Assembly: GCA_903642325.1 (NCBI GenBank)
Contig: CAHJWM010000002.1
Location: 186,001-250,000, forward strand
DNA: 64,000 nucleotides
Direction: 5' to 3'
From: Myxococcales bacterium
GTDB lineage: Bacteria; Myxococcota_A; Polyangia; Polyangiales; Polyangiaceae
In this document: in pieces, positions 23,467-46,446 of the stretch
Layout: every line of letters begins with the position of its first letter
Position numbering within the stretch: the stretch's first letter is position 1
The notes under the pieces: model-generated
Database searches by the model: none
What the model saw: only the letters and a program-made list of their open reading frames with translations
Told to the model about the DNA's origin: nothing
Program-made: the position numbers and the translations under genes

Positions 23467-25018
23467 GCTCTCGCTCCCATTCAAGCTTCTCGGGGCGTCC
23501 ACGCTGGGCCTCGTCGTCGCAAACATCGGGGCGTGTGAAAGTCCGTTTACGAGTTGCGTGGACACCCGCACGTGCCCTCGACCTCCAACTGAAGACGCAG
23601 GAGCGGCTGGCCTCGCCGATGGCTCGAGTGGCGCTTCAGGGGGTGGCGGGTCGGCGGAGGGTGGGACCGCAGACGGCGGCGCTGCCGGCGCAGAGGACAA
23701 GCCGTGTGATCTGAGCAAGCCGCCCGGCGAAGAAGCGTGTTTGGTCAGCAACGAGTATGCGGTCTTCGTAGCGCCTTCCGGCAAGGACAGCGCCCCCGGC
23801 ACGCAGGCCGCGCCCCTGAAAACGATCGCCAAGGCGCTCGAGCTCGCCCACGCCGCAAGCAAAAAGGTGATCGCTTGCAACGGCACTTATGACGAGCAGC
23901 TCAAGCTGAGCACGAGCACCAATCTGTTTGGAGGCTTTACCTGCCCAAGCGACCCAAACCCCTGGGCCTACGACTCGGGCAAGAAAGCGATCGTCGCCCC
24001 GTCCGCACGGGGCCTGGCCCTCAGTGTCGCCACCGGAGCCGCCGCGGTCGTCATCGCCGACTTCGAGTTCGACGCCAAAGATGGCGTCGACCCCGGCGAA
24101 TCGAGCGTCGCCGCCTTCATCAACGCTTCCACCAACGTCTCGCTCATCCGCCTCAAGCTCGCCGCCGGCACAGGCGTCGATGGTGCCAATGGTGTCCTGT
24201 CGCCAGTCGCCTTTCCTTCCCAGCCCACCCTCAATGGCAACTCCGCGACGGGCGACAACGGCGGCCTTTCCAACACGGTCTTGTGCGCGATTGGCGGAAG
24301 CACGAAGGGCGGCGTCGGGGGGAACGGGGGTCCCAATGCCACCGGTGGCGGACAAGGTACTCCAGCGCTCAACGGGGGCACCCCTGGCACCCTCGGAGCG
24401 CTCTGCGCTGGGCCTGGCAGCGGTGGAAACGGCAGTGACGCGCCTGCACAACCCGCCGCCTCCGGCGCCGCGCAGCTCGGCGCCATCACTCCTGTGGGTT
24501 GGAGCCCCACCCCAGGCACCGACGGCTCGCCCGGCACACCCGGTCAGGGCGGAGGAGGAGGTACCGGCTCGAGCACCGGCGGAGGAGGCGGTGGCGGCGG
24601 AGCTGGTGGCTGCGGAGGCGCTCCAGGCACGGGCGGCAAAGCGGGTGGCGCGTCGATCGCCCTGCTCGTCCTCAACTCCACCCTCGGGCTCAACGAGCTC
24701 GACCTCGTCACCGAAGACGCCGGCAAAGGCGGAAATGGCGCCGCTGGCCAAGACGGGCAAAGTCTGTTTGGCGCTCCTGGTGCTGCGGCCGACTTTGGCT
24801 GTGGCGGCGGCAAAGGCGGCAAAGGCGGAGCCGGTGGCGCGGGTGGAGGCGGCGCGGGCGGCATCTCGGCCGGCATCGTCTCGCGAGGCGCGGCCCCAAT
24901 GCCCGACCTCAAAACCCACATCAGTACGGGCTTAGCCGGCACGAAAGGCGTCGGCGGCCTCGCCGGCAGCAACGACGGGATCGATGGCAAAGCCCAAAGC
25001 ATCTTCAACGTCCCTTGA
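23432..25018 (+). CDS. Gly-rich surface lipoprotein, copy 2
   Basis: 528 residues, paralogue of the gene before it. The signal region differs completely (FKLLGASTLGLVVANIGAC, a lipoprotein site), while the beta-helix and Gly-rich parts are nearly identical apart from two variable loops. Its ATG lies inside the last 35 bp of copy 1 in another frame, within the sequence encoding IDGKAQ. A GACGGGA-like ribosome site is also supplied by copy 1. So the start site itself arose in the 3' end of the duplicated unit. Confidence 0.85.
   Translation: MAKPRLFSKFRELSLPFKLLGASTLGLVVANIGACESPFTSCVDTRTCPRPPTEDAGAAGLADGSSGASGGGGSAEGGTADGGAAGAEDKPCDLSKPPGEEACLVSNEYAVFVAPSGKDSAPGTQAAPLKTIAKALELAHAASKKVIACNGTYDEQLKLSTSTNLFGGFTCPSDPNPWAYDSGKKAIVAPSARGLALSVATGAAAVVIADFEFDAKDGVDPGESSVAAFINASTNVSLIRLKLAAGTGVDGANGVLSPVAFPSQPTLNGNSATGDNGGLSNTVLCAIGGSTKGGVGGNGGPNATGGGQGTPALNGGTPGTLGALCAGPGSGGNGSDAPAQPAASGAAQLGAITPVGWSPTPGTDGSPGTPGQGGGGGTGSSTGGGGGGGGAGGCGGAPGTGGKAGGASIALLVLNSTLGLNELDLVTEDAGKGGNGAAGQDGQSLFGAPGAAADFGCGGGKGGKGGAGGAGGGGAGGISAGIVSRGAAPMPDLKTHISTGLAGTKGVGGLAGSNDGIDGKAQSIFNVP
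23622..24996 (+). repeat. Tandem duplication unit, copy 2
   Basis: Second copy of the 1.39-kb unit. It lacks a 12-bp piece found near 22071-22082 of copy 1 and carries different variable loops at about 24225-24440 and 24765-24810. Its 3' end again contains the CGATGGCAAAGCCC sequence that provides a start codon in copy 2. Confidence 0.85.
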
Positions 25019-32383: not shown

Positions 32384-32917
32384 TTATTTGAGCAATCCAT
32401 CGAGCTCGGACTCGAGCTGCGGCTCCTCACCGGCGTAGAAGCCTGAGTGTACGAAGCGAACGATGCCGCTCGCGTCGACCACGTAGCTCGTTGGCATCGT
32501 CGGCGGCTGGTAGCTTTTGGCTACGATTTGACCCTCATCCCAGGCCAGCGGGAAGCGCGCCCCCGTTTCGCGTGCGAACTTCGGAATCGAGCCGGTGCCC
32601 TCGTCCACGCTGATGCCGATTACCGTCACCTTGCTGCCATACCTGTCGGCGATGCGCTGATAGGCCGGAAAGGAAGACCGGCAAGGCGTGCACCAGGTCG
32701 CCCAAAAATCAATCACCACCGGCTTGCCCGCAAACCTCACGAGGCTGATCGTGCGCTCTCCATTTGGCGACGGCAGGTCGAAACTCGGCGCTGGCGCGCC
32801 GATCAGCGGATGACCCTCTTCCGCCGCACTGCCGGTAGCGGCCGCGCCGCGCATCGCGCCGCAGGCTAGTGAGAATAGCGTCAACCCTGCCAGCGCTCCG
32901 ATCAGCCGCCAGGTCAC
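32384..32917 (-). CDS. TlpA-like thiol-disulfide oxidoreductase lipoprotein
   Basis: 177 residues. The signal ends LFSLAC (Cys19 lipidated). It is a thioredoxin fold with FWATWCTPCRSSFP, redox Cys76/Cys79, and a cis-Pro segment PPTMPTSYVVD. Such proteins reduce periplasmic thiols for cytochrome c maturation or protein repair. GTG 32917 overlaps the stop of the TSP3-barrel gene (GTGA), so the two are made together. The coupling suggests that this oxidoreductase maintains the Cys pairs of the TSP3 repeats. Confidence 0.92.
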   Translation of the reverse strand: MTWRLIGALAGLTLFSLACGAMRGAAATGSAAEEGHPLIGAPAPSFDLPSPNGERTISLVRFAGKPVVIDFWATWCTPCRSSFPAYQRIADRYGSKVTVIGISVDEGTGSIPKFARETGARFPLAWDEGQIVAKSYQPPTMPTSYVVDASGIVRFVHSGFYAGEEPQLESELDGLLK

Positions 32918-34524
32918 TTGGCTTTCTTCTTATCGGCCTTCGGCTCGTCGGGACAACCGTCCTCGTCCTCGAAATTATTCTTGGTTTCGGGCTCGTCGAT
33001 GCATTCGTCTTGCGCATCGGGGATGCCGTCATTGTCGTTGTCGAGATCGGGGCAGCCGTCCGTATCTTGAAAGCCGTCCGTATCCTCCGCCGCGTCGGGG
33101 CACTTGTCGCGCGCATCGGGCACGCCATCGTTGTCCCTGTCCGCCTCGTCGGGACAGCCGTCTTCGTCCTTGTACCCGTTTACGGTCTCGGGCTCCATCG
33201 GGCACTGGTCCGACACGTCGGGAATGCCGTCCTTGTCATTGTCGGGATCGGGGCAGCCGTCGCGGTCTTCGAAGTTGTCTTGATCTTCGGCCTGATCCGG
33301 ACACTTGTCCTGCGGGTCGAGCACGGTATCCAGATCGTTGTCCGGATCGGGACAGCCGTCGGAATCCTCGTTGCCATCGAAGTCTTCCTTTTCCGTCGGG
33401 CACTGGTCGACTGAGTCGTCGATGCCATCGCCATCGCGATCGCGCTTTTCGAGCGCGTACGTCAGCCCCAAAAAGCCGCGAAACTTCGGCACGCCGACGC
33501 CATCGACGAGCGCGGTCCCAGCCCCCAAGGCAACGGCCAGCGGCGAGCTCAGTGGGACGATTTGAAAACCACCGTCGAGCTCGAGCGTATTTTCACCTTT
33601 TACCGACGAGAAGCGCGTCGTCCCGAAGCCGTCGACCAGCACGCGAAACACCGGGCTGATACGAAACCCGCCGGCGACGCTATAGCGCCCTTCCGAGCCC
33701 ACGGATGACGTGCCGACTTGACCCTTGTCTCGAAATACTCCCGCCAGATTCGCGGCCCCGGAAAGCGGGCCCTTTTCAGCATCCAAAATCAGCCGCAGGC
33801 CGGCGCTCGGCAGCGTGTCGCCGATGTATTCGTTCTTCGCGGTGGCGTGCCCCACCGGTGCCGTCACGAACGCGGCCGCGCCGACCACGAACGGATCGGT
33901 CGCTCGCCCCGCAAGGCGAAACTTTGCCTCGAGCTGCGGGTCGCCCAAACCGGCTTTGCTGATCCCGTCCGCGGTATTGGACAGTGTTGCGGGATCGAGG
34001 CCCTGACCTTTCACGTACGACACCGGGATGTTCAGGCCGAGCTGCAGCCGCGGGAACGGCGTGAGCGTGCCCATCAGATTGCCGGTGAACTCGTTTTCAA
34101 TCACCTTCAATGTGCGGATACTGCGCGCCACCGGATCGCTGCAGGTGAGGCCGTTCGCTCGGTCTACCGCGCTGTCCACCGTGCACGTGCGCACGTCGAA
34201 GGGGCGAAAGCTGTAGTTCGCCATCAAGCCGAGGCTCCACAACATCTTGCCGTCGGTGCGCGCCCCGCGCGTGGTGAAGTAGTTTTGCGGGCCCGGCGCG
34301 GGGTCGAATCGCTGGAGCGCGAAGTCGCCCGTGACTGATTGTGCACGCGCCTCCGGAACGCGAGCAAAAATGGCCACCGCCAAAACGCCGCCACTGATGA
34401 GCTTAGCGCCGCGCGCGGCGTTGCAGAGGCTGAACGAAGGCTCCGCCTGAAGTGCGGGGAACGTGCGAAGTTTACGGACCAACTGTGCTTTCCTCCTGAC
34501 GATCGCCGCGCACGAGATGGCCAT
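32914..34524 (-). CDS. Outer-membrane barrel with thrombospondin type 3 repeats
   Basis: About 536 residues. A long N-terminal leader ends in a hydrophobic stretch and a probable cleavage after ARAQS, so the true start could be downstream of ATG 34524. A ~330-residue OmpA/OprF-type transmembrane barrel follows (amphipathic strands, YSVAGGFRISPVFRVLVDGF). The last ~150 residues are calcium-binding TSP3 repeats (DRDGDGIDDSVDQCP, DNDKDGIPDVSDQCP and further copies), each with a Cys. The usual C-terminal OmpA peptidoglycan-binding domain is absent; the tail is Lys-rich. It is coupled to the TlpA-like gene. Confidence 0.85.
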   Translation of the reverse strand: MAISCAAIVRRKAQLVRKLRTFPALQAEPSFSLCNAARGAKLISGGVLAVAIFARVPEARAQSVTGDFALQRFDPAPGPQNYFTTRGARTDGKMLWSLGLMANYSFRPFDVRTCTVDSAVDRANGLTCSDPVARSIRTLKVIENEFTGNLMGTLTPFPRLQLGLNIPVSYVKGQGLDPATLSNTADGISKAGLGDPQLEAKFRLAGRATDPFVVGAAAFVTAPVGHATAKNEYIGDTLPSAGLRLILDAEKGPLSGAANLAGVFRDKGQVGTSSVGSEGRYSVAGGFRISPVFRVLVDGFGTTRFSSVKGENTLELDGGFQIVPLSSPLAVALGAGTALVDGVGVPKFRGFLGLTYALEKRDRDGDGIDDSVDQCPTEKEDFDGNEDSDGCPDPDNDLDTVLDPQDKCPDQAEDQDNFEDRDGCPDPDNDKDGIPDVSDQCPMEPETVNGYKDEDGCPDEADRDNDGVPDARDKCPDAAEDTDGFQDTDGCPDLDNDNDGIPDAQDECIDEPETKNNFEDEDGCPDEPKADKKKAK

Positions 34525-34716
34525 ACTCGGCAGAATCACACTTAGGCTCTCACAGACCCACCGCGCTCCGCAATGCTGCTCGCGCCGCGTACATTTCGGC
34601 AGATAACCTGTTATCGAAGCGGGAGCGCGCGGCACCGGAACCGAGCGATGTGCGCCTCAGGGACCCGTATGGCCGCGCGGCGCCCGTCCGCTGCAATGAG
34701 CTGATATGCTCGCCGC

Positions 34717-35847
34717 GTGGCTGTCTGCTCCGCGTGCAAGAGCATCGTCGTCGAGGAAGCCCGCTTTTGCCCATTTTGCGGCAGCGCGATCGTCAAGGCC
34801 AAGCCATTGATTGGCGCTGGTGCCGAGCTCGACCTCGAAGACTGGGGTCGCGCCCTTCTCGGGCACACGATCGGTGAGGGCGGCATGGGCGTCGTCTACC
34901 GCGGCTGGCTGTATTACAATCCCGCCGGCCGGTTCGCGGGCACCCCGCCCCACCCCATTGCCGTGAAACTGCTGCACCCCCTGCTGCAAGGCAAAACACG
35001 CGCGCGCAAGCTGTTCGTGCGCGAGGCCACCGCCCTCGCACGCCTTTCGCACCCGAATATCGTGCATTTTTTTGGACTGTCCGACTTCGACGGGCAGCTC
35101 GCGTTGGTGATGGAGCTCGTTCACGGCGAGCCACTGAGCGACTTGATCGGGCGGGTGAGCGCGGAATCACGCCAAGGACAGCGGGCCCTACCCGCTTTGC
35201 CCCTGGCGCAGGCCTGGCACTATTTCGCCCAGCTATTGGGCGCGTTGGCCTCCATTCATGGCTTTGGCATCCTGCACCGGGACATCAAATCCGCCAACGT
35301 GCTGGTGCGAGGCGACGGCGTGGTGAAGGTGACCGACTTCGGCATCGCCCAAATCCCAGCCGAGGAAGTAAAGAACACGGGCGGCATGGCGCCCGGCACG
35401 GGCGCGTACATGTCCCCCGAGCAAGTGCTGAACCAGCCCTTAGATCCGCGCTCCGACCTGTATTCCGCCGCCATCGTGCTTTATGAAATGCTGACCGGGG
35501 TTACACCGTTCGACCGCCCCGAGCGGAACGAAGTGATGGTGCGCACGGCGCAGATCGACGAAGCCCCCGCCCCGTTGAGCTCTTTTTTGCAGGGCGCGCC
35601 ACCAGTCCTGGATCTCCTGATCGCGCGGGCGCTGGCAAAAGATCCCGAGCTCCGCTACGGCTCGGCGATCGAGCTCGGCGAGACGTTCCGTAGCGCGCTC
35701 GGCTTGCCCCAAACGCCGGGCTGGTCGCTGCAGCAGCAGCTCTCCGACGTGGCCCAAACCATGTCCGCAATCGCGCTGCCCGCCCCGGAGCTCGGCCAAC
35801 ACGCCGCGCAGCTGGGCACGGAGCTGATGGTCGCGTTCCGCAAATAG
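34717..35847 (+). CDS. Cytosolic Ser/Thr kinase with N-terminal zinc ribbon
   Basis: 376 residues from GTG 34717. The start MAVCSACKSIV with EARFCPFCGSAIV gives a C4 zinc ribbon (CxxC...CxxC) in the first ~28 residues. The kinase follows: IGEGGMGVVYRG, VAVK-type Lys in IAVKLLHP, ILHRDIKSANVLV, VTDFGIAQ, YMSPEQ. No membrane helix is present, so it should be soluble. The C-terminal ~60 residues are helical and unassigned. It is divergent from the TSP3-barrel gene and separated from the next barrel gene by 105 bp. Confidence 0.92.
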   Translation: MAVCSACKSIVVEEARFCPFCGSAIVKAKPLIGAGAELDLEDWGRALLGHTIGEGGMGVVYRGWLYYNPAGRFAGTPPHPIAVKLLHPLLQGKTRARKLFVREATALARLSHPNIVHFFGLSDFDGQLALVMELVHGEPLSDLIGRVSAESRQGQRALPALPLAQAWHYFAQLLGALASIHGFGILHRDIKSANVLVRGDGVVKVTDFGIAQIPAEEVKNTGGMAPGTGAYMSPEQVLNQPLDPRSDLYSAAIVLYEMLTGVTPFDRPERNEVMVRTAQIDEAPAPLSSFLQGAPPVLDLLIARALAKDPELRYGSAIELGETFRSALGLPQTPGWSLQQQLSDVAQTMSAIALPAPELGQHAAQLGTELMVAFRK

Positions 35848-35952: not shown

Positions 35953-38061
35953 ATGAAACAAGCTTCCGTTGCCTCGCTAATTGCGCTCGGTTTTCTGGTC
36001 ACCCCGGCGCTTTCGGAAGCCCAGACCAAACCGTCTACCCCCGCTCCCCAGAGCACGCCGAAGGGGAGCGCAGCGGAGCAAAGCGGGGAGCCGACCGTCA
36101 ACGACAGCGCACCCGGCAGCGATGCCACCGTGACTCCGAGCGCGGAGGACGCCACCGCTCCGGCTGCGCCGGCTCCGGGAACGCCCAGCGGCTCCTTCGC
36201 GCCGCTGCCCGCCTGGCCCGAGCCGGGCAATGACGCGGCGGAGCTCCGTCGACAGAACAACGAGCGCCCGAGCGATGCAGCCCGGCCGAGTGAGCACGAA
36301 GTCTTCGCGGAAGATTGGTGGGCCCACGCGCGCCCGGTCCTCGAGCTGCACGGAAATTTCCGCGTACGCGCGGAGCTGTTTTATCAATTTGCGCTCGGTC
36401 GGAAGGACACCCCCACCGCTGCGATCTGGCCGCAACCGGCGGACAATTTCTTCAACGACAACGCGGCCGCGCAGCACGGGCCGAGGTTGTGCACGCAAGA
36501 CGAGACCAACAACGGCAGCGACAGCGGTGCCACGCGCGCCACTTACGGTTGTAAGAGCGGCACGCAAGCGGGCGCCAACTTGCGCTTCCGCCTCGACCCG
36601 GAGCTGCACATCTCGGACAACCTGCGCGTCATCAGCCAAATCGACCTATTCGACAACATCGTGCTCGGCTCGACCCCGAGCGAATACCGCAATGTGCCCT
36701 CCGGTACCGGCTACGCGGTGGCCGCCCGCAGCGGCTACACGCCGATCGGCTTTGGCACTACCACGACAGAAGCGCCAACCTCAGGCGTCAATAATCTGCG
36801 CGACAGCGTGGTGGTCAAGCGCGCCTGGGCCGAATACGCGACGCCCGTAGGTGAGCTGCGCTTCGGTCGTATGCCCAATCATTGGGGCCTCGGCATTTTG
36901 AACAACTCCGGCGATGGCTACGATGACAACTACCAGTCGACCATCGATCGCATTCAGTTCACCACTGGGGTCAAGCCGCTCGACCTATACGTGACCGGCT
37001 CCTGGGACTTCGTGAACGAAGGGGCCACGAGTGACAGCCTCGGTATCTATCGCGGGCAGCCCTACGACGTTGCGCAGTCCGACGACGTGACGCAATACAC
37101 GCTGTCCATTGCACGGCGGAAGAGCAGGGAGCTGACTCGGCTGGCGCTGGCCAAGAACAACGTCGTCGTCAACGCTGGTTTGCAGGTGATGTATCGCCAT
37201 CAGTTGCTTGCGGACGACACCAATGGGGTGACCACGACCGCCACGAGTGACTGCACGTCCGGTGCGGCCGCGCTCGGTTGTGCTCCGGGTAGCCTCACCT
37301 TCACCCGCCGCGGTGCGAGCGCGTGGACGCCGGATCTCTGGCTACAGGTGCTGTACAAGAAGTTCCGATTCGAGGCGGAAGCGGTGACCGTCCAGGGCTC
37401 GCTGGACAACATCAGCACCGTGGGCAATGACTCGCCGACGAACAACGTCGGATACAAGCTTCGCAAATACGGGTTAGCTACCGAAATTGCCCAGAACCTG
37501 ATCGAAGACAAACTGCACCTCGGCTTCAACTTCGGCTGGGCTTCGGGCGACTCGGACGTGCAGGGCCTCACCCCGCCCAACAATGGGGTCGAGGATCAGC
37601 ACGGAAACCGTACTGATTCGACGTTTCGTTTCAACCCCGCGTACAGCATCGATCTGATCCTGTACCGCAACATCCTGACTCGCGTTCAGGGCACCTATTA
37701 TTTCCGTCCCAGCGTGAGCTACGATTTCTTGCACGACAACTCGGGCCAGAAGCTGGGCGGCGGGCTCACCGCCGTTTGGTCGCGCGCCTCCGAGTTCATT
37801 CAAGCGCCGGGGCATGCGCGGGATCTCGGTGTCGAGCTCGACGCCAACGTCTACTTTCAGTCCAAAGACGGCGCCCTCAACGACGACCCCTCGAAGCGCG
37901 GCGGCTTTTTCACGAAGATCGAGTACGGCGTGCTCTTCCCCATGAAGGGCCTGGGTTACACGGACAACGAGGCCGCGAACATCAACCGCGTGCTCAACTA
38001 CAACGCCGCCGGTACCAACACCGCGCAGACACTGCGCTGGTACATGGGCGTGTTTTTCTGA
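35953..38061 (+). CDS. Outer-membrane beta-barrel protein, TIGR04551-like
   Basis: 702 residues. ATG 35953 begins a signal peptide (ASVASLIALGFLVTPALSEAQ). A Pro/Ala/Ser linker leads to a large barrel: NFRVRAELFYQFALG, LRVISQIDLFDNIVLG, WAEYATPVGELRFGRMPNHW, and a terminal strand ending in Phe (TLRWYMGVFF), as outer-membrane barrels require. The pattern resembles the deltaproteobacterial TIGR04551 family of unknown role; this is by recollection. It is the first of four same-direction genes encoding barrels and lipoproteins. Confidence 0.8.
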   Translation: MKQASVASLIALGFLVTPALSEAQTKPSTPAPQSTPKGSAAEQSGEPTVNDSAPGSDATVTPSAEDATAPAAPAPGTPSGSFAPLPAWPEPGNDAAELRRQNNERPSDAARPSEHEVFAEDWWAHARPVLELHGNFRVRAELFYQFALGRKDTPTAAIWPQPADNFFNDNAAAQHGPRLCTQDETNNGSDSGATRATYGCKSGTQAGANLRFRLDPELHISDNLRVISQIDLFDNIVLGSTPSEYRNVPSGTGYAVAARSGYTPIGFGTTTTEAPTSGVNNLRDSVVVKRAWAEYATPVGELRFGRMPNHWGLGILNNSGDGYDDNYQSTIDRIQFTTGVKPLDLYVTGSWDFVNEGATSDSLGIYRGQPYDVAQSDDVTQYTLSIARRKSRELTRLALAKNNVVVNAGLQVMYRHQLLADDTNGVTTTATSDCTSGAAALGCAPGSLTFTRRGASAWTPDLWLQVLYKKFRFEAEAVTVQGSLDNISTVGNDSPTNNVGYKLRKYGLATEIAQNLIEDKLHLGFNFGWASGDSDVQGLTPPNNGVEDQHGNRTDSTFRFNPAYSIDLILYRNILTRVQGTYYFRPSVSYDFLHDNSGQKLGGGLTAVWSRASEFIQAPGHARDLGVELDANVYFQSKDGALNDDPSKRGGFFTKIEYGVLFPMKGLGYTDNEAANINRVLNYNAAGTNTAQTLRWYMGVFF

Positions 38062-38147
38062 GCTTCCCCGCGGCTGAAATGCTGCCGAAACGAAGGCCCC
38101 GCGGCTGGATTGGCGGGCGCCCGCCGCGTTGTGTAACCTTGGCGTAT

Positions 38148-39065
38148 ATGTCGCTCCCCAGACCGTCCGTGTTAGGCGCTTGGTTGTGGATCGCGCTCAC
38201 GCAAGGCTGCTCGTCGAGCACGCCCCTCGACGTCGCCTCAGCGGGGACGGGCGGCGGCTCCGTGGTGGGAATGGCCGGCGCGGATGGCGAGCTCGCCGGC
38301 AGCGACGGGTCCAGCCCCTCATCGTGCAAGCCTCCCGGATACCACGTCGATGCAGAACCGACCGCGGTCGGAGAAATCCAAGCGACCATTCAGGATGCGA
38401 GCGGCGTTGCTGTCCCCATGTTGCCAATCCAGGTTTGCGGCACGGATCAGTGCACGTTTGGGTCCAGCAACGCGACCGGCAAAGTCGACATTATTCCCAA
38501 AACCAAGCTTATTTTACCAGCATTCAAGTATGGCGACGGGCTCGACTTCGCGGAGCTCGCCATCCAGCTCGTCAAAGGCAAGCAGGATTTGGGTACGCTC
38601 GTGGCGCTCCCGTTTCCCGCCTTCACGGAAGGCGGCAAGTTCCCGGAAAGCGGTCGAGTGACGAACGGTGATCTCACGCTATCCATCGAGGCGACGACTA
38701 CCGTTCAGTTCGATCGTCTGAGCTACGCCGACTCGGAGCTCGTCTTCCGAACGGTTTCGATTCCGATCGACGAAAGCCAGAAGGCGCTCGACCCGAGCTT
38801 CGGCTTCGAGCTCGCCTATGCGGCCGCCCCGCTCGGCACGACGTTCTGTCCGCCGGCGCAGCTCAGCCTCAAAAACCGGCTAAAGTGGCCAGCCGGCACG
38901 GCCGTGGAGTTGTTCGTCCAAGGCGTGAATGCGGATGAGGCCTGGGCCCCCTACGGCACTTGGATCAAGGTTGCCGAGGGCAGCGTGAGCCGAGACGGGA
39001 GTGTCATCGACACGACGAGCGGTGGCATCACGGTCTTGTCTTCCATCGCCGTGCGCCGAAAGTAA
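38148..39065 (+). CDS. Surface lipoprotein, 305 aa
   Basis: The signal ends in LTQGC (Cys21 lipidated). A Gly/Ser linker leads to a beta-sandwich-like region (VGEIQATIQDASGVAVPMLP, VQVCGTDQCTFGSSNATGKV in parts, TFCPPAQLSLKNRLKWPAG). The GTDQC...NATGKV turn resembles carboxypeptidase-regulatory-like or Ig-like repeats, and the rest is unassigned. It lies 2 bp before the redoxin lipoprotein gene and in the same direction as the flanking barrels, so it probably belongs to the same envelope complex. ATG 38148 is chosen because it begins the signal peptide. Confidence 0.8.
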   Translation: MSLPRPSVLGAWLWIALTQGCSSSTPLDVASAGTGGGSVVGMAGADGELAGSDGSSPSSCKPPGYHVDAEPTAVGEIQATIQDASGVAVPMLPIQVCGTDQCTFGSSNATGKVDIIPKTKLILPAFKYGDGLDFAELAIQLVKGKQDLGTLVALPFPAFTEGGKFPESGRVTNGDLTLSIEATTTVQFDRLSYADSELVFRTVSIPIDESQKALDPSFGFELAYAAAPLGTTFCPPAQLSLKNRLKWPAGTAVELFVQGVNADEAWAPYGTWIKVAEGSVSRDGSVIDTTSGGITVLSSIAVRRK

Positions 39066-39067
39066 AC

Positions 39068-39730
39068 ATGCCGAGCGGAGCAGGGCCGCTGACTCGGGCG
39101 CTCGCCCGCGTTGCCTCGTGCGCGGTCGCTGGCTTTGCGTGCTTCGCGTGCGGCAGCAACGCCCCCACGATCCCGTCCGAGCTATTGCAATCAGGCGGCT
39201 GCGCCGCCTCCGATTACCCGGCCGGCCCCTTTGGTACCGAAGAGAGCCAAACGCTGGCCAATGCCTGCTTTCAGGGCTTTCGCGCTCCGCAAATGGTCCG
39301 TCACGAAGCAAGCTCCCTCCAAAGCATCGCCTTCGCTGATTACTACGATCCGACCGGCAGCAAGGGTATCAAGCTGGTGCTGATCGACACCTCCGCGGTT
39401 TGGTGCTCGGCCTGCCGCGTGGAGCACGAGGGGCTGTCTGAAAAGAACGACGAGTATGCGCCCAAAGGCCTGCGCATTCTGGGCACGCTGTTTCAAGACG
39501 CCCGGCGAGACCCGGCCACCGTGAAGGATCTGAGCAACTGGGTCGAGACCTTTTCATCGAACTACGCGATGGCTCTCGACCCCGATTACCAGCTGGGCGC
39601 CTTCGCCTCGGCCGAGACCGCACCGCTGAACCTCGTCGTCGACGCGCGCACCATGAAGATTGAAAAGAAGCTGCTCGGCGATCAAGCGACCGTTCTCTGG
39701 CCGTTCATCGATGCTGCGCTGGCCGATTAA
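39068..39730 (+). CDS. Redoxin-type lipoprotein
   Basis: 220 residues. A Cys-containing signal (AGFACFACGS; lipid Cys at 25 or 28) is followed by a conserved N-terminal segment YPAGPFGTEESQTLANACFQ. A thioredoxin fold then carries IDTSAVWCSACRVEHEG, redox Cys113/Cys116. The YPAGP[FY]GT segment is shared with the redoxin lipoprotein at 42158-42880 and marks a myxobacterial sub-family. Its 3' end overlaps the start of the next barrel gene by 20 bp, so the two are coupled. Confidence 0.9.
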   Translation: MPSGAGPLTRALARVASCAVAGFACFACGSNAPTIPSELLQSGGCAASDYPAGPFGTEESQTLANACFQGFRAPQMVRHEASSLQSIAFADYYDPTGSKGIKLVLIDTSAVWCSACRVEHEGLSEKNDEYAPKGLRILGTLFQDARRDPATVKDLSNWVETFSSNYAMALDPDYQLGAFASAETAPLNLVVDARTMKIEKKLLGDQATVLWPFIDAALAD

Positions 39731-41612
39731 ACGGTGTGCGGCGCTAGGGGTGGGCATTGGTCTGTGCTGCCTGAGCGCGCGCGCGCGAGCGCTCGAGCCG
39801 GTGAGTGTTTTTGGCACGCCGGTGGCGTTCGACATCACCGAAAGCTCCAGCCTGCTCTACAACTTCGACAACCGGGACGCGCGCGAAAATCAAGTCCCGA
39901 CGCGCGCCAATGACAACTGGGGACTTTTTTACAACCGCATCAATGTGCTAGCGAATGGCGGCGTGTGGCAAGTCGGCCTGCGCGTCGATGACGCGTGGTT
40001 CTTCCGCTCCCCGAACGCCACGCAGATCGGGCTCGACCTAGTGGATAGCCGCCCGGGCGGCGTCACCTCCCCTTCCGCTCCGGCTTACTTTCGACAGAAG
40101 GTGAATGAAGCCGGGGTTGAGCTTTCGAATCGTTACATCAACTGGCTTTACCCGGCGAAGTACTATGCCACGTACACGACGCCGAACCTGGAGCTTGGCT
40201 TGGGCGACGGATACGTGTCGTTCGGGCGCGGCCTAGTGCTCAGCTTGCGCAAGCTGGACGAGCTCGCCAGCGATACGACGCTGCGCGGCGCCCGCATCAC
40301 GGCCCGAGTGCGCACGGGCTCGCTCTCGCTGCGCGCTACAGCCGTCGCCGGAACGCTAAACCCTCTGCGTATAGACCCTGCCAGTGGACGCTCGCTGGGC
40401 GTGGATGCGAGCGTGACGCCCGGCTTCGTGTCGGTGCTGGAAGCGGGGATGCCGCGCGCGCTGAGCACGGATTTCGCGCCCAATACCGGCAATTGCGCGA
40501 CCTTCGCCACGTGCAGCTTTGCGCCGGATCAGATTTTCGGAGCCCAGCTCGAGCTCAGCCACCGGTCGGCCAAAATCGCGGTCCAGGGGTCGCTGCTCGA
40601 GCGCAGCACGCCGCTCGCCAATGACATCGTACGCAGCTCGACGAGCATGGCGACCGGCAGCGCCTCGCTCGAGCTCGCGGATCTATCCGGACATGGCAAT
40701 GCCTACCTGGAAGTGGCCCTCCAACATTTGACGCCCGCCGACCGCTCCACCCCCCAGCTCGCGCCGGGTCAAGCCGTGTATCTGAGCGTGAGCTTGTTGG
40801 AAGGGCCGCTCAGCTTTCTGTTCGAGGGCAAGCATTACCGTCGCTTCTTTCCGCTGCTCGCCAACGTTAGCCCGGTGCGCGCGCGCGAGCTCAGCACGCT
40901 GTCAGCCAGCGCGCCCCCGACCACCGAAGCATTATTCCTCGACACCGAATTCGAGAGCTTCAATACGTGTGTCACCGGCGGCCGCCTGCGCTCCGATCTC
41001 GCGCTCTCTAGCACCGCCGCGGTCTACGCTTGGGCGGGTTACTACGAGTCATTCGCGGAGTCGGCCTCCAACGACGCCTGCCAAGTGAGCCGCGCCACGC
41101 GCAATCGCATCGTCGACAGTGCGACTGGCTTCGAGCTGCACAGCCGAGATCGGCGCTTCAAGGCCGACATATCGGTGGGCAGCCGCCTCGACACCGCGGA
41201 CCGAGAGCTCTCGACCGATAGCGGGAACACGCGCGTCTTTTACCGAGAGGTCTACACACGCCATAAAGCGGCCCTCAGCCTGGGCGGGCCCTTCGCGTTG
41301 GAGCTTCAGGGGTGGCACCGCCGTCGCCATCAAACCGTTGGCGGGCCGGAAGCGCCCTGGAGCGAGGGCGACGAGCTGCTGGGCGTCGATTACGCCGCGC
41401 GCTGGTCGGTCGCGCTGGGTTTTTCTTACGACACCAACCCCGCGGTGCCGAAAAGCTACGTCAACGGCCAGGTCGGCTACCGGCTGAGCTCCGACTCGAA
41501 CCTGTCGCTGTTCGTCGGGCAACGCCGTGGGGCGCTGCGTTGCGTGGGCGGCGTGTGCCGCGTGTTCCCGCCCTTCGAAGGCGCTGCCCTGGACCTGACG
41601 CTGCGCTTCTAA
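39711..41612 (+). CDS. Outer-membrane beta-barrel protein, DUF6029-like
   Basis: 633 residues. ATG 39711 starts a signal peptide (RCAALGVGIGLCCLSARARA). The mature part has barrel features: NDNWGLFYNRINVLANGGVW, alternating strands, TTPNLELGLGDGYVSFGRGL, KHYRRFFPLLANV, and a C-terminal strand ending in Phe (ALDLTLRF). The layout resembles DUF6029-type barrels, which in Bacteroidetes often sit beside redoxin lipoproteins; this comparison is from memory. The coupled redoxin gene upstream supports a barrel-lipoprotein complex. It is convergent with the TlpA-like gene, with 12 bp between the ends. Confidence 0.8.
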   Translation: MLRWPIKRCAALGVGIGLCCLSARARALEPVSVFGTPVAFDITESSSLLYNFDNRDARENQVPTRANDNWGLFYNRINVLANGGVWQVGLRVDDAWFFRSPNATQIGLDLVDSRPGGVTSPSAPAYFRQKVNEAGVELSNRYINWLYPAKYYATYTTPNLELGLGDGYVSFGRGLVLSLRKLDELASDTTLRGARITARVRTGSLSLRATAVAGTLNPLRIDPASGRSLGVDASVTPGFVSVLEAGMPRALSTDFAPNTGNCATFATCSFAPDQIFGAQLELSHRSAKIAVQGSLLERSTPLANDIVRSSTSMATGSASLELADLSGHGNAYLEVALQHLTPADRSTPQLAPGQAVYLSVSLLEGPLSFLFEGKHYRRFFPLLANVSPVRARELSTLSASAPPTTEALFLDTEFESFNTCVTGGRLRSDLALSSTAAVYAWAGYYESFAESASNDACQVSRATRNRIVDSATGFELHSRDRRFKADISVGSRLDTADRELSTDSGNTRVFYREVYTRHKAALSLGGPFALELQGWHRRRHQTVGGPEAPWSEGDELLGVDYAARWSVALGFSYDTNPAVPKSYVNGQVGYRLSSDSNLSLFVGQRRGALRCVGGVCRVFPPFEGAALDLTLRF

Positions 41613-41624
41613 GCGAGAAGCCGC

Positions 41625-42161
41625 TCAGGGCGCGGGCTCTGCCAACGCCGCGACGATATCCGGCTCCACGTCGCTCGCGCCGCCCGTGGTGTAGCCCTCT
41701 TGCTTCCTCAAAATGCGACCGTTACGCCCGATGAGCACGCTGTACGGCGCGCTCGTCTTGGGATTGTACAGCGCGACCACGCGCGTCTCTTGGTCGAGCA
41801 AGATCGGAAAGCTGACCCCGAGCTTCGATACGGCGGTCTTCACCTGGGCGATCGATTCGGGGCCATCGATATCGATGCCGAGCACGACGAAGCCCTCGCT
41901 CTTGTGCCGCCGATAGAGCGCGTCCAAATGCGGCATGCCGGCCAGGCAGGGCTCACAAAAGGTGGCCCAGAAATCGAGCAGCACGACCTCCTTGCCCAGG
42001 TGCTCGCTCAGGCGCTCGCTTCGCCCGTCCACCGTCGAGAGCTCGAAGTCCGGCGGGGTCACTTGGCTCGTGCCACTCGAGCCAGGCCGCCCTGCGCCGC
42101 CACAGGCGGCGAGCGCGCCGCCCAAAAGCGCGAATCCGATGACGGAGCGCCGGGACGTCAC
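41625..42161 (-). CDS. TlpA-like thiol-disulfide oxidoreductase lipoprotein
   Basis: 178 residues. The signal includes LGGALAACGG (Cys20 lipidated); an SRR at residues 3-5 near the start is compatible with either Sec or Tat export. The thioredoxin fold contains LLDFWATFCEPCLAGMP with redox Cys69/Cys72, and VLGIDIDGP. GTG 42161 overlaps the stop of the upstream redoxin lipoprotein gene (GTGA). It is the second extracytoplasmic thioredoxin-fold protein of this two-gene unit; a partner-exchange pair is plausible. Confidence 0.92.
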   Translation of the reverse strand: MTSRRSVIGFALLGGALAACGGAGRPGSSGTSQVTPPDFELSTVDGRSERLSEHLGKEVVLLDFWATFCEPCLAGMPHLDALYRRHKSEGFVVLGIDIDGPESIAQVKTAVSKLGVSFPILLDQETRVVALYNPKTSAPYSVLIGRNGRILRKQEGYTTGGASDVEPDIVAALAEPAP

Positions 42162-42880
42162 AGCTTGTTCAGCTGCGTCTGCACCGAATCCCAATACGTG
42201 CTGCTGTAGCCCATGGTCACGGAAACGATGGTCATGGTTCGCACGTTGATCAACATGTTGAGCGGCGTGGCATCGGAATCGAAGTAAGCGCCCATCTTGA
42301 AGCTCGGGTCCAACACCAACGGGAACTTCACATCGTGGTTCGAAACCGAGCCCCAACGACTCAGATCCAGCGGCTGCGCCGGATAGTATGCGTTGTCCTC
42401 GAACAACGTACCCAAGAACTCCACGCCTTTAGCCTTGTACGTGGCGTAGGTCCCATTCGCGTTCATGTCCTGATACTCGGCCCGGCAGACACCACACCAA
42501 ACCGCCGAAGCATTGATCGCGAGCAACTTCACACTCGAATGCCCATCGGGATCATAAAAGTCCGACAGGCGCACGGTCTCGAACTGCTTCGTGTCGTACG
42601 CAGCCGCGTCGGGGTGCCTCCAACCCAGAAACGTGAGGTTTTGAATCGTTGCGCCGCGACCGGTCCCGTACGGGCCAGCCGGGTACGCGACGTAGATCGA
42701 CGCCGGCTTGGTGAGATCAACCGCCGGGCTGCCCGCCGCGGTGCCCGCGCTCGACGCCGCCGGGCTGCCTGCCAGCTCGTTTTCGCCTGGCGCCCCAGTG
42801 AGCGGACTGCTGGAGCAAGCGAGGCCAACAGCGGCGAAGCTCGAGACGGCGAACAGGACTAGAGCAATCGGCTGTTTCAT
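42158..42880 (-). CDS. Redoxin-type lipoprotein
   Basis: 240 residues. The signal ends VGLAC (Cys22). A Ser/Ala/Gly linker leads to the shared YPAGPYGTGRGATIQNLTF segment and a thioredoxin fold with AINASAVWCGVCRAEYQ, redox Cys129/Cys132. It is paralogous to the redoxin at 39068-39730. It is the first gene of a two-gene reverse-strand unit with the TlpA-like protein, and is divergent from the Cys-rich lipoprotein gene (64 bp), so the three may share one regulatory region. Confidence 0.9.
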   Translation of the reverse strand: MKQPIALVLFAVSSFAAVGLACSSSPLTGAPGENELAGSPAASSAGTAAGSPAVDLTKPASIYVAYPAGPYGTGRGATIQNLTFLGWRHPDAAAYDTKQFETVRLSDFYDPDGHSSVKLLAINASAVWCGVCRAEYQDMNANGTYATYKAKGVEFLGTLFEDNAYYPAQPLDLSRWGSVSNHDVKFPLVLDPSFKMGAYFDSDATPLNMLINVRTMTIVSVTMGYSSTYWDSVQTQLNKL

Positions 42881-42944
42881 GCTGTCGACCTGAGGGTAAA
42901 CGAATGGAGAGAGACGTGGCTCTCGAGCGACGAAAACGAGTACT

Positions 42945-44147
42945 ATGAAACACGGTAGCCCCGTGGACCGCCCCGTCAAGCGCAGCCCTTTCTTCCACCC
43001 GGTTTCAGGTTTGATTTACAGCCTGATTCTGCTGCTCGCGGTCCTGTTCGCGGGGTCTGCGTGCTCGAGCAGTACGTGTTTGGAGGCAGATTGTCGAACA
43101 TCCGCCACTCCGACGGACGGCGACGGGGGCGCGTCGGACGCCCCGCTCCCGGTGAGTCGACAGTGCAGCGCAAACGCAGACTGCGAGGGCGCGGGCGGCC
43201 AGTCGTGCATCGATGGCACGTGCCAAGTCGCCTGCACTTCGCACTTCGACTGCCAGGGCTTCGGCGAATGCGTCAGTGCCGTCGACGCCAGCGGTGTAGC
43301 CGGTCATTTTTGCGACTCGCGTCACCCGCAGAAGCCGGGCCAATTTTACACGCGCTGCCCAGGCGGCGATGCCGACTGCGATGGCGCGAGCGGCTTTCTA
43401 TGCATCGGCGCGGGAGCCGATGACGTAGAAGCGTACTGCACTTCGGATTGCAAGGGCGACACGGACTGCGCGGACGGCTTTGCTTGCAGCCCGCTCGTGC
43501 GCTCACCCTGCGCGGACGCCTGCAACGTGAGCGGTGTCCCCAAGGACCGGCAGTGCGTGCCCGCCGCCCAGATCGGTGTTGGCAAGCCGTATCAGTGCGG
43601 CAGCCGTGGTCCGATGCGCAACGTTTGCCGGCCCCGCGAATTCTGTAGCAGCTGCGAGACGGACACCGATTGCCTCGCTCGAAGCGATCAAATCTGCGCC
43701 AAAGACAAAAGCGGTGCCAAGATCTGCACGCAGCGGTGCGATCTCAAGCATCCATCTTGCCCTTGGGGCAACGCCGGCACGTGCGGGTTGTGGGACACGG
43801 ACCTCGGGCTCGCCACCTGCGCCCACAAATTCGGAAAGTGCACGGGCCGTGGCAAGGGCTGCGAGCCGTGCCTGAAAGACGCAGATTGCGGCGCGAAGAA
43901 CGCCTGCACCTCCTCCGAGTTCACCGGCGAGAAATGGTGCGTGGACTTCAGCGTCAGCTGCAGTTGCGCCGGTGGTACTGACGCCAACGGCATTTGCGAC
44001 GGGGGTGGCTGCCCACTCAGTCCGAGTCAGCTCGTCATGCAGTGCGTCGACACGTCCACCACCGGCGCCGCAGGGGTGTGCGTCGGCGCGGACACTGCGA
44101 GCGCACTGGGCTCCTCACAACAGAGCGGCTGCTGGCCGGCCAAGTAG
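42945..44147 (+). CDS. Cys-rich secreted lipoprotein (45 Cys)
   Basis: 400 residues. A hydrophobic signal (YSLILLLAVLFAGSAC) ends in the lipid Cys. I count 45 cysteines in total, in repeated units such as CSANADCEGAGGQSC, CKGDTDCADGFAC and CLKDADCGAKNAC, resembling the small disulfide-knot repeats of myxobacterial Cys-rich proteins. No catalytic motif is seen. Its position beside three thioredoxin-fold lipoproteins suggests it is a folding substrate or a metal/thiol carrier. Confidence 0.85.
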   Translation: MKHGSPVDRPVKRSPFFHPVSGLIYSLILLLAVLFAGSACSSSTCLEADCRTSATPTDGDGGASDAPLPVSRQCSANADCEGAGGQSCIDGTCQVACTSHFDCQGFGECVSAVDASGVAGHFCDSRHPQKPGQFYTRCPGGDADCDGASGFLCIGAGADDVEAYCTSDCKGDTDCADGFACSPLVRSPCADACNVSGVPKDRQCVPAAQIGVGKPYQCGSRGPMRNVCRPREFCSSCETDTDCLARSDQICAKDKSGAKICTQRCDLKHPSCPWGNAGTCGLWDTDLGLATCAHKFGKCTGRGKGCEPCLKDADCGAKNACTSSEFTGEKWCVDFSVSCSCAGGTDANGICDGGGCPLSPSQLVMQCVDTSTTGAAGVCVGADTASALGSSQQSGCWPAK

Positions 44148-44258: not shown

Positions 44259-45521
44259 ATGTCGGTTGCGCAAAACCTCGAGTCGCGTTTGGTATTGGAC
44301 GGCAAGTACGCGTTGCTGCGTGAGATTGGTGCGGGCGCGAGCGGCACGGTGCATGAGGCAGAGCACTTGGTCGTCGGAAAGTTCGTCGCCATCAAGGTAA
44401 TGCGCCGAGAGGCATTCGCCGATCCATCGCATCGCGATCAATTCGTCACCGAAGCCCGCGCAGCCGCGCGCATCGCCCACGCCAACGTCGTCGATATCCA
44501 CGATCTCGGTCTGACGCCGGACGGGGTCCCTTACCTGGTCATGGAGCTCCTACGCGGCGAGACGCTCGAGGACATCCTCGACGCGCGCGGCGCGCTGCCC
44601 GCGAGCTACGCCTGCGAGCTCATGCTGCAGGTGCTCGCCGCGTTGTCGGCGGCGCACGCCCAAGGTTTTTTGCACTGCGACTTGAAGCCCGCGAACGTGA
44701 TGATCACTCATCCTCGTCCCGATCGGCCGCACGTCAAAGTGCTGGACTTTGGCATCGCGCGACGCATGCACGACGCCGACGGTAGCGTCGCTCGCGGCTC
44801 GGGAGGCACACCCATGTTCATGGCGCCCGAGGCGGCACGCGGTGAGGCAGTGGACGCGCGCAGTGACATCTACTCGGCCTCGGCCATGCTCTACGCCATG
44901 CTGACTGGCCGTGACCCCTACCAAGGCAAGACCGCAGGCGCGGTGCTGCAGAAGGTCGTCGCGGGCGACTTCGAGCCACTGTGTCAGGTCAATCCAATGG
45001 TGCCTAAGCTGCTCGCCGCCGTGGTCGAGCGTGGCATGGCGCTCGAGCCACGTCGCCGCATCGACAGCGCCGAGGAATACGCGGAGCTATTACACCCGTT
45101 CGTCGGCGCTGCCGCCCAGGCGCTCTCACTCGGCCCCCAACGCCGCATGTTCAGTGACCCGATCCCGCTGATCGCGACGCCGCGTGAGGTCATCATTCAA
45201 GAGTCACTGTGCCCCGACCCGCCCCCGCGAGAATCGTCGGTGAGGCCAATTCGTTTGGCCTCCTACGATCGCGGCGTTACCGACTCGCTGCTGGTTGCGC
45301 CGCGCTTTCCGCGTTCGGCGAGCACGCCGCGTTTGGAAGCCGGCACGGACTTCATGCCCTCGCAAGGCGAGCCCAAGTGGCGCGAGGCGGAAGAGCGTGA
45401 TTCTCCGACTCGGCCAGCACGAGTCTCGGGCGCCGGGCGTAACGCCTGGCCCGCCCTTGTCGCGACGGGCATCGGCTTCGGGATTGGCGTCCTCATCGCT
45501 TGGCTATCCGGCGCGCTTTAA
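44259..45521 (+). CDS. Transmembrane Ser/Thr protein kinase, non-RD type
   Basis: 420 residues from ATG 44259 (TTG 44244 also possible). The kinase core has IGAGASGTVHEAE, VAIKVM, the catalytic loop LHCDLKPANVM in which the usual HRD Arg is Cys140, LDFGIARR, and FMAPEAARG. The Asp, Lys and Asn needed for catalysis remain. A Pro/Ser-rich linker leads to a single C-terminal membrane helix (WPALVATGIGFGIGVLIAWL) with no periplasmic domain. The HRD Arg normally docks the activation-loop phosphate, so activation may differ from its neighbours. Confidence 0.92.
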   Translation: MSVAQNLESRLVLDGKYALLREIGAGASGTVHEAEHLVVGKFVAIKVMRREAFADPSHRDQFVTEARAAARIAHANVVDIHDLGLTPDGVPYLVMELLRGETLEDILDARGALPASYACELMLQVLAALSAAHAQGFLHCDLKPANVMITHPRPDRPHVKVLDFGIARRMHDADGSVARGSGGTPMFMAPEAARGEAVDARSDIYSASAMLYAMLTGRDPYQGKTAGAVLQKVVAGDFEPLCQVNPMVPKLLAAVVERGMALEPRRRIDSAEEYAELLHPFVGAAAQALSLGPQRRMFSDPIPLIATPREVIIQESLCPDPPPRESSVRPIRLASYDRGVTDSLLVAPRFPRSASTPRLEAGTDFMPSQGEPKWREAEERDSPTRPARVSGAGRNAWPALVATGIGFGIGVLIAWLSGAL

Positions 45522-45570: not shown

Positions 45571-46446
45571 ATGAGCGATCAGCCCTACGCCGCGCGAGAA
45601 ATCGGACCGGATGACCCGGTGCCCGGGGTCAAGCACGTGATCTTGGTGATGAGCGGCAAGGGCGGTGTTGGCAAGAGCACGGTTGCGAGCAACTTGGCCC
45701 TCGCGCTCTCTCGCATGGGCCACGCCGTGGGGCTGTTGGATGCCGACATTTATGGCCCCAGCATTCCGACCATGTTCGGGATCACGGGTCAGCCAGTCAG
45801 TGACGGTAAGCAGATCCAGCCTCTGGAACGCTTCGGCATCAAGCTGATGAGCATCGGTTTTCTGCTGGAAGACCCGAAGTCCGCGATCGTTTGGCGCGGC
45901 CCGATGCTTCACGGAGCCCTGTTGCAGTTCCTGAAAGACGTGAGCTGGGGCACGCTCGATTACCTGCTGCTCGACCTACCGCCGGGAACCGGCGACGTTG
46001 CGCTCACGCTGTCACAAAAAGTCCGCAGCACTGGCGCGGTGATTGTGACCACGCCGCAGGAGGTGGCCCTGCAGGACGTGTACAAGTCGGTTTCGATGGC
46101 CCAGAAGGTCGGTATCCCATTGCTCGGGGTGGTCGAGAACGAGAGCTACTTCCTCTGCGACGGCTGCGAAAAGCGTCACGAGCTGTTTGGCAGCGGCGGA
46201 GGCCAACGGATTGCGGACTTCGCCAAAGCACCGCTACTGGGTCAAATCCCTCTGCACCCTTCGGTGCGGCAGTGGGGTGACGCAGGCATCCCCGTGGTGC
46301 AAGCGGCCCCCGAGTCCGACACCGCACAGGCCTTCGTCGCGGTGGCGAGCAAGCTCGTCGACAACCTGCAGCAGGGGGAGCCGGAGCCTGAGCTCCTGAT
46401 CGACCGCAGCGGAGGCGTCAACCGCCGCCTGCCGATCGCGCGCTGA
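45571..46446 (+). CDS. mrp: Mrp/ApbC-type Fe-S cluster carrier ATPase
   Basis: 291 residues of the Mrp/NBP35 P-loop family. The deviant Walker A is SGKGGVGKS (28-36), followed by LLDADIYGPSIP, WRGPMLHGALLQFL, DYLLLDLPPGTGD and the bridging Cys pair in FLCDGCEKRHELFG (Cys196/Cys199). It binds a [4Fe-4S] cluster and delivers it to apo-proteins. The N-terminal MIP18/DUF59 domain found in many bacterial Mrp proteins is absent. Cytosolic. 52 bp follow the kinase stop, with a candidate promoter in between. Confidence 0.95.
   Translation: MSDQPYAAREIGPDDPVPGVKHVILVMSGKGGVGKSTVASNLALALSRMGHAVGLLDADIYGPSIPTMFGITGQPVSDGKQIQPLERFGIKLMSIGFLLEDPKSAIVWRGPMLHGALLQFLKDVSWGTLDYLLLDLPPGTGDVALTLSQKVRSTGAVIVTTPQEVALQDVYKSVSMAQKVGIPLLGVVENESYFLCDGCEKRHELFGSGGGQRIADFAKAPLLGQIPLHPSVRQWGDAGIPVVQAAPESDTAQAFVAVASKLVDNLQQGEPEPELLIDRSGGVNRRLPIAR

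Follow-up and report, generated by a model that had tools for sequence, protein, structure and literature searches.

A DUF6029 outer-membrane barrel linked to thioredoxins across several bacterial phyla: a candidate envelope thiol-disulfide module

Introduction

Why would a bacterium encode thioredoxins side by side with an outer-membrane barrel? Disulfide chemistry in the Gram-negative envelope is thought to end in the periplasm, run by general Dsb and TlpA/CcmG enzymes. The question is raised by seven genes, here called A to G, in a stretch of 64,000 nucleotides from a Myxococcales bacterium (contig CAHJWM010000002.1, positions 186,001 to 250,000; hereafter the window). They encode a TIGR04551 barrel (A), a lipoprotein (B), two thioredoxin-fold lipoproteins or redoxins (C and F), a DUF6029 barrel (D), a TlpA/ResA-like thioredoxin (E) and a Cys-rich lipoprotein (G). 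A sequence-only reading of the window had taken them for an undescribed envelope redox system with two barrels as ports, which would transport or fold Cys-rich surface proteins or handle a thiol-reactive metal such as copper. All seven genes, with the motifs, overlaps and Cys count that it described, are present where it placed them. We report here that TlpA, the DUF6029 barrel and a thioredoxin-fold lipoprotein recur together as a conserved gene set in several bacterial phyla. On balance, we favor the view that the core of A to G is a dedicated outer-membrane thiol-disulfide module, acting on a cysteine pair of the barrel and on surface Cys proteins.

Results

Linkage of TlpA to the DUF6029 barrel

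DUF6029 is present in 54 of 115 genomes of the window's order and, by a search with the barrel alignment, in 133 of 282 genomes of its phylum. Within the order, 40 near loci were fetched with barrel and redoxin both in view; the redoxin stands beside the barrel in all of them, and TlpA does so in most. Outside the order, 40 loci of the phylum were picked from the list of barrels alone, so that their neighbors did not bias the choice. In 35 of these 40, a TlpA gene either is fused to the barrel gene or stands on its strand no more than 1.5 kb away, and 144 kb of DNA surrounding the same loci hold no further TlpA match. In five loci (L163, L185, L189, L197 and L198) TlpA and the barrel are a single open frame with TlpA first, and the fusion in L198 has one signal peptide, at its start. 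The partner TlpAs always keep their CxxC site (73/73 and 62/62). The window's own E exceeds the Pfam cut-offs for AhpC-TSA (68.3 bits), Redoxin (63.3) and Thioredoxin_8 (37), and its CEPC is a CxPC site. Its best NCBIfam match is ResA (NF002854), yet the score of 89.8 bits lies below the curated cut-off of 170, and judging by these profiles E may be called TlpA/ResA-like only.

Beyond the phylum, a genome collection was scanned with a DNA pattern for G-x2-C-x-G-G-x-C-R-x2-P-x3-G, with an A/T bias at two wobble positions. The pattern was found on at least 120 stretches, and among the matches listed 104 have a gene that fits the barrel profile: 99 from Bacteroidota, two from Ignavibacteriota, one from Kapabacteria, one from a genome named Chlorobiota and one from a metagenome-assembled genome with an archaeal name, which is probably misplaced. 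In Bacteroidota and relatives, TlpA is found immediately upstream of the barrel in 65 of 81 testable loci among the matches listed (58 on the same strand), compared with 10 of 514 other genes. The clustering of this neighborhood is far beyond chance, and the undescribed envelope redox module that the sequence-only reading had proposed does recur elsewhere as a gene cluster.

An invariant cysteine pair in the barrel

All 40 sampled homologs of D match PF19494. Near its C terminus, D carries the motif C-x-G-G-x-C-R-x2-P in the form RCVGGVCRVFP, a feature that the sequence-only reading had missed. The C-x4-C pair is invariant in the alignments of 40 of 40 near and 40 of 40 phylum-wide DUF6029 proteins; it sits just before the last strand and is nearly always followed by R and x2-P. 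The Pfam model PF19494, which was built independently, contains the same pair: swapping both cysteines in silico in a 90-residue fragment of D costs 15.2 bits of Pfam score, and swaps at the other motif positions cost 5.4 bits for each Gly, 5.0 for the Arg and 3.7 for the Pro. The pair is also invariant in the cross-phylum barrels, but these were fetched by that very motif and so provide no test of its invariance, while their neighborhoods can still be tested. Exactly two Cys are found in the mature barrel of 61 of 86 motif-selected proteins among the matches listed, nearly all of them from Bacteroidota. Of the features considered, the invariant C-x4-C pair best explains the linkage of thioredoxins to this barrel.

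Structure models of the barrel

The model of D, built on an alignment of 84 homologs from the motif scan, is only fair (predicted local distance difference test, pLDDT, 68.6; predicted template modeling score, pTM, 0.74), and strand counting therefore rests on the homolog from locus L312, modeled with the same alignment set (pLDDT 94.7, pTM 0.89). The latter model has 24 strands, with the Cys hairpin (residues 538-549, Cys 541 and Cys 546) between strands 23 and 24. Turns between even and odd strands are short in the model, which would put the hairpin on the long-loop side, normally the outside. Foldseek and VIA return large barrels generally, including FimD/PapC translocation pores (Z 17.5, 4.5 Å over 364 residues; Z 17.6, 4.7 Å over 378), OprD-type channels, LptD and TonB receptors. 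LptD appears in the Foldseek rows of both models and in the VIA rows of D, and is absent from the 50 best VIA rows of L312, which does not count against a likeness to it; the Foldseek matches also include the copper transporter OprC and the Mtr complex barrel chain 6r2q_B. On the strength of the models, such matches fix the class of the barrel, namely the 24-strand class, and not its function, nor do the models show what, if anything, might pass through it as a port. When the barrel alignment was searched against the sequences of solved structures, the three best matches were RecA fusion chains over 34 columns, which were discarded as an artefact.

The thioredoxin-fold lipoproteins and their Omp28 counterparts

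C and F are 33-34% identical, share the YPAGP[FY]GT segment that had been singled out in the sequence-only reading, and are the sole two close members of their family in the 5.83-Mb genome. The W-C-x-x-C site is invariant across 48 lipoprotein redoxin homologs. Relatives of C occur in 74 of 115 genomes of the window's order, usually beside DUF6029, and a redoxin lies within 3.5 kb of the barrel in 19 of the 40 loci sampled by barrel alone outside the order. In Bacteroidota and relatives the corresponding place downstream of the barrel is taken by an Omp28-type protein, recognized by length and CxxC in 61 loci among the matches listed; all 37 aligned downstream neighbors from these matches belong to PF11551 (Omp28). 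C and F themselves were rejected as members of Omp28: they have no Pfam match to PF11551 at E values up to 1, and profile comparison aligns the two groups weakly, over the thioredoxin part only (hhalign probability 90%). Neither do they reach the NCBIfam cut-off of 123 bits for DsbE (TIGR00385), scoring 25.9 and 15.4 bits, respectively. HBP35 of Porphyromonas gingivalis is related to Omp28 by profile search (E 1.5e-10); it is located at the outer membrane, uses its CxxC to reduce insulin, complements E. coli dsbA and binds hemin (PMC2907840).

Two side observations concern these families. Relatives of C and F in loci L323-L333 (minus strand in L323, plus strand in L330) have one in-frame TGA, which falls at the first Cys of CxxC in 11 of 11 such homologs (UxxC, often UPGC); this position points to selenoproteins within the C/F family and would fit selenocysteine redox catalysis. 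Eighteen Bacteroidota loci, L220 among them, encode members of a secreted protein family near the TlpA-DUF6029-Omp28 genes, on one strand or the other; the family has a Cys pair, which in L220 reads CWGPQGGFGNC, and may be a client of the module.

The Cys-rich lipoprotein and gene order near the window

G has 44 Cys besides the acylated one, and no other match to it is found in the genome; its position beside F can therefore not be put down to a large family with members in many places. G-type lipoproteins recur in relatives. A compact redoxin-TlpA-DUF6029 operon with a Cys-rich lipoprotein divergent from the redoxin is found in L082, L083, L085, L087, L089, L101 and L102, and in more distant families (L092-L094) another Cys-rich lipoprotein, called with 33-38 Cys, precedes the redoxin, with DUF6029 and TlpA next in order. 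With the acylated Cys assigned by eye, the number of remaining Cys is even in 25 of 25 complete Cys-rich neighbors (19 of the G type and 6 of the distant type). These proteins are related and thus not 25 independent cases; the counts nonetheless vary widely, from 32 to 68, and their evenness is consistent with what would be expected for paired disulfides. G occurs once in the genome, next to the module, with a Cys number that fits full pairing, and to that extent the proposed link to Cys-rich surface proteins is plausible; a role of G as a client would be a further step.

The order B-redoxin-TlpA-DUF6029 occurs in L172, L180, L181, L182, L187 and L188, with B recognized by weak profile matches, which suggest an older gene order. 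Compared with the compact operon, the window locus looks rearranged, with a duplicated redoxin: B-C-D run on the plus strand and F-E on the minus strand. The genome of L335 shows that the gene set can split, its F-E-G genes standing beside TIGR04551 and its redoxin-DUF6029 pair on a separate contig.

The TIGR04551 barrel

The two barrels had been read as one unit, and this is not supported. TIGR04551 is present in 58 of 60 genomes of the window's family, mostly far from DUF6029, and was rejected as an obligatory member; the recurring unit is TlpA, DUF6029 and the thioredoxin-fold lipoprotein. A is instead a partial, lineage-restricted neighbor of the module, retained as such because near genera and two further loci carry it close (L063, L064, L066 and L068-L070; L334 and L335). 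In L334, TIGR04551 immediately precedes a C-type redoxin; this and its place in L335 suggest that it may be a second barrel served by the same redoxins. No mention of TIGR04551 was found in the open-access literature searched.

The window locus

The features of the locus are collected in Table 1. On the plus strand, A and B are separated by 86 bp and B and C by 2 bp, and C and D overlap by 20 bp. On the minus strand, the GTG start of E at 42161 overlaps the stop of F by 4 nt (GTGA coupling), and E begins with a signal of the lipoprotein type (RR...LAAC). B and G have no family match in Pfam and NCBIfam profile searches. A role in anti-phage defence was dropped, none of the seven proteins having a PADLOC match.

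Table 1. Genes and motif of the module locus, in positions of the window
Feature	Positions	Strand	Remarks
A: TIGR04551 outer-membrane-barrel-type protein, 702 amino acids	35953..38061	+	539.6 bits against a cut-off of 300 (NCBIfam)
B: lipoprotein	38148..39065 (alternative start 38079)	+	carboxypeptidase-regulatory-like sandwich by eye; conserved Cys pair
C: thioredoxin-fold lipoprotein	39068..39730	+	CSAC at 39404-39415; YPAGPFGT; AhpC-TSA 27 bits against a cut-off of 26
D: DUF6029 outer-membrane beta-barrel, 633 amino acids	39711..41612	+	PF19494 59.7 bits against a gathering cut-off of 27
RCVGGVCR motif of D, Cys 611 and Cys 616	41538..41561	+	hairpin preceding the last strand
E: TlpA/ResA-like thioredoxin, probable lipoprotein (SRRSVIGFALLGGALAAC)	41625..42161	-	CEPC at 41946-41957
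F: thioredoxin-fold lipoprotein	42158..42880	-	CGVC at 42485-42496; YPAGPYGT; AhpC-TSA above cut-off
G: Cys-rich lipoprotein, 45 Cys	42945..44147	+	first Cys in lipobox; divergent from F

Several neighboring genes are worth recording. Serine/threonine-kinase-like genes bracket the module (34717-35847 and 44259-45521, both plus strand), and kinase genes recur near the module elsewhere. A Mrp/NBP35-type ATPase follows (45571-46446, plus strand) and is found a few kb from the module in about 12 loci of other genera. An extra thioredoxin-fold protein with a CTPC site (32384-32854, minus strand) adjoins a protein with 14 Cys (32914-34635, minus strand), a type that is also close to the module in three relatives. 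Farther away, two overlapping genes (21874-23466 and 23432-25018, plus strand) have lipoprotein-like products with 11 Cys apiece.

Discussion

A proposed module acting on the barrel cysteines

How might these proteins work together? In the mechanism we propose, the periplasmic TlpA (E) would be tethered near or to the barrel and trade disulfides with its hairpin; C and F, the lipoprotein thioredoxins whose slot Omp28 takes in Bacteroidota, would be a second member of the same exchange chain. Together they would control whether the C-x4-C pair of the last hairpin of D is reduced or oxidized, and we infer this pair to be their direct substrate. Through the barrel or beside it, the thioredoxins may also serve exported Cys proteins, the disulfide-rich lipoprotein G being the likeliest client in this lineage. 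Electrons would presumably flow from a DsbD/CcdA-type donor, here a single DsbD_TM protein, to TlpA. TlpA/ResA-type CxPC enzymes are usually reductants, and since the CxPC sites of the TlpAs resemble those of reductants such as ResA, reduction or isomerization would be favored over oxidation; VKOR and DSBA proteins of the genome would be available for oxidation de novo.

Several observations weigh against this proposal. Five of the 40 barrels sampled outside the order (L166, L170, L190, L191 and L194) have no neighboring TlpA and retain the Cys pair all the same. In the L312 model the hairpin joins the last two strands on the outer, long-loop side, where a periplasmic thioredoxin would have access only before insertion or through the lumen. 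The Foldseek likeness to many large barrels is at the fold level only, G-type lipoproteins are restricted to the window's wider lineage, and the genome also encodes a general Dsb set (one DsbD_TM protein, besides VKOR and DSBA proteins). Thiol exchange on the barrel is, moreover, a prediction from genes and models.

The main rival takes the hairpin disulfide for a maturation checkpoint, which thioredoxins form, proof-read or isomerize while the barrel is folded by the beta-barrel assembly machinery (BAM), the mature barrel being a non-redox porin or exporter. Activation of LptD needs native disulfides, with DsbA and DsbC acting on it (PMC10567701), and the barrel models resemble LptD and the ushers at the barrel level. 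The apparent position of the modeled hairpin out of periplasmic reach after insertion, as well as the five TlpA-barrel fusions, would also suit such a checkpoint. However, a local C-x4-C disulfide could be left to the general Dsb enzymes; a dedicated or fused thioredoxin, a second thioredoxin-fold lipoprotein and a Cys-rich lipoprotein exceed what a checkpoint needs, and the usual reductant role of CxPC enzymes speaks against it as well. We regard it as possible, if on the doubtful side. Mixed disulfides between TlpA and the barrel are predicted by the checkpoint as well as by the exchange mechanism that we favor; what sets the two apart is whether cycling would go on in the mature barrel. An extended form of the thiol-exchange mechanism, a relay of reducing or oxidizing equivalents across the outer membrane from TlpA to the hairpin at the outer mouth of the 24-strand DUF6029 barrel and on to a surface redoxin or Omp28 that maintains the disulfides of surface proteins, seems to us unlikely.

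It is very unlikely that the barrel moves heme or metal in or out while the thioredoxins keep ligand cysteines reduced. TlpA/ResA enzymes do serve cytochrome and CuA assembly, and OprC is among the Foldseek matches, but these matches are generic large barrels, no heme or metal gene family is among the recurring neighbors of the module, and the redoxins match no copper-chaperone family in Pfam or NCBIfam. The handling of copper or another thiol-reactive metal, which the sequence-only reading had offered as an option, was rejected on the same absence of metal genes from the recurring neighbors. In favor of heme is HBP35, the Omp28 relative that combines hemin binding with thioredoxin activity (PMC2907840). 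A porin for polysaccharide export is highly improbable; it derives from an HHpred similarity between Wzi barrels and DUF6029, for which a role in polysaccharide secretion has been suggested (PMC9603273) in the one paper mentioning DUF6029 that was found in the open-access literature searched. Clustering of the recurring neighbors gave thioredoxins, lipoproteins, kinases and Mrp and no polysaccharide-export family, and an export porin would leave the Cys pair and the thioredoxin fusions unexplained. Finally, A to G could be independent envelope genes that are neighbors by chance in this lineage. The frequent location of TIGR04551 elsewhere in family genomes agrees with this for A at most; for C to F it is contradicted by the cross-phylum linkage and the fusions, and within the lineage also for G, leaving it barely credible as an account of the module.

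Thioredoxins tied to one outer-membrane barrel in several phyla, including gut Bacteroidota, suggest that some bacteria control thiols at the outer membrane itself or across it. For DUF6029, a domain of unknown function, the proposal offers a testable role, with Flavobacterium johnsoniae and Bacteroides thetaiotaomicron as suitable organisms for study, and the module gives a context for Omp28 and HBP35.

Comparison with known systems

In the open-access literature searched, subscription journals being outside the search, no description of the TlpA-DUF6029-Omp28 unit was found, nor was a link between TlpA, a barrel and disulfides in Bacteroidetes. Among the closest known systems is E. coli LptD, likewise a large barrel of the outer membrane on whose cysteines thioredoxin-fold enzymes of the periplasm act (PMC10567701). 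LptD, however, uses general Dsb enzymes encoded elsewhere and forms long-range disulfides, whereas the module has a dedicated or fused TlpA, a local C-x4-C pair and a lipoprotein thioredoxin; the LptD family is not among the Pfam matches of D or its homologs, and the likeness in fold is at the barrel level only. E has the fold, the CxPC site and the membrane-anchor signal of TlpA, ResA and CcmG, but its apparent partner is an outer-membrane barrel and not cytochrome or CuA assembly. Omp28 and HBP35 of Bacteroidota are thioredoxin-fold envelope proteins like C and F, and Omp28 is encoded beside DUF6029; C and F lack a PF11551 match and can be aligned with Omp28 over the thioredoxin part only. 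The porin-cytochrome conduits of the MtrAB type offer a possible analogy only, that of a large barrel with redox partners. The module has no hemes and would use thiol chemistry instead, and no sign of an electron path through its barrel was seen; were the relay across the outer membrane true, it would be a thiol counterpart of these conduits, common to Bacteroidota, their relatives and the window's phylum. The parts of the module belong to known superfamilies, and the kind of system they point to is envelope thiol-disulfide exchange.

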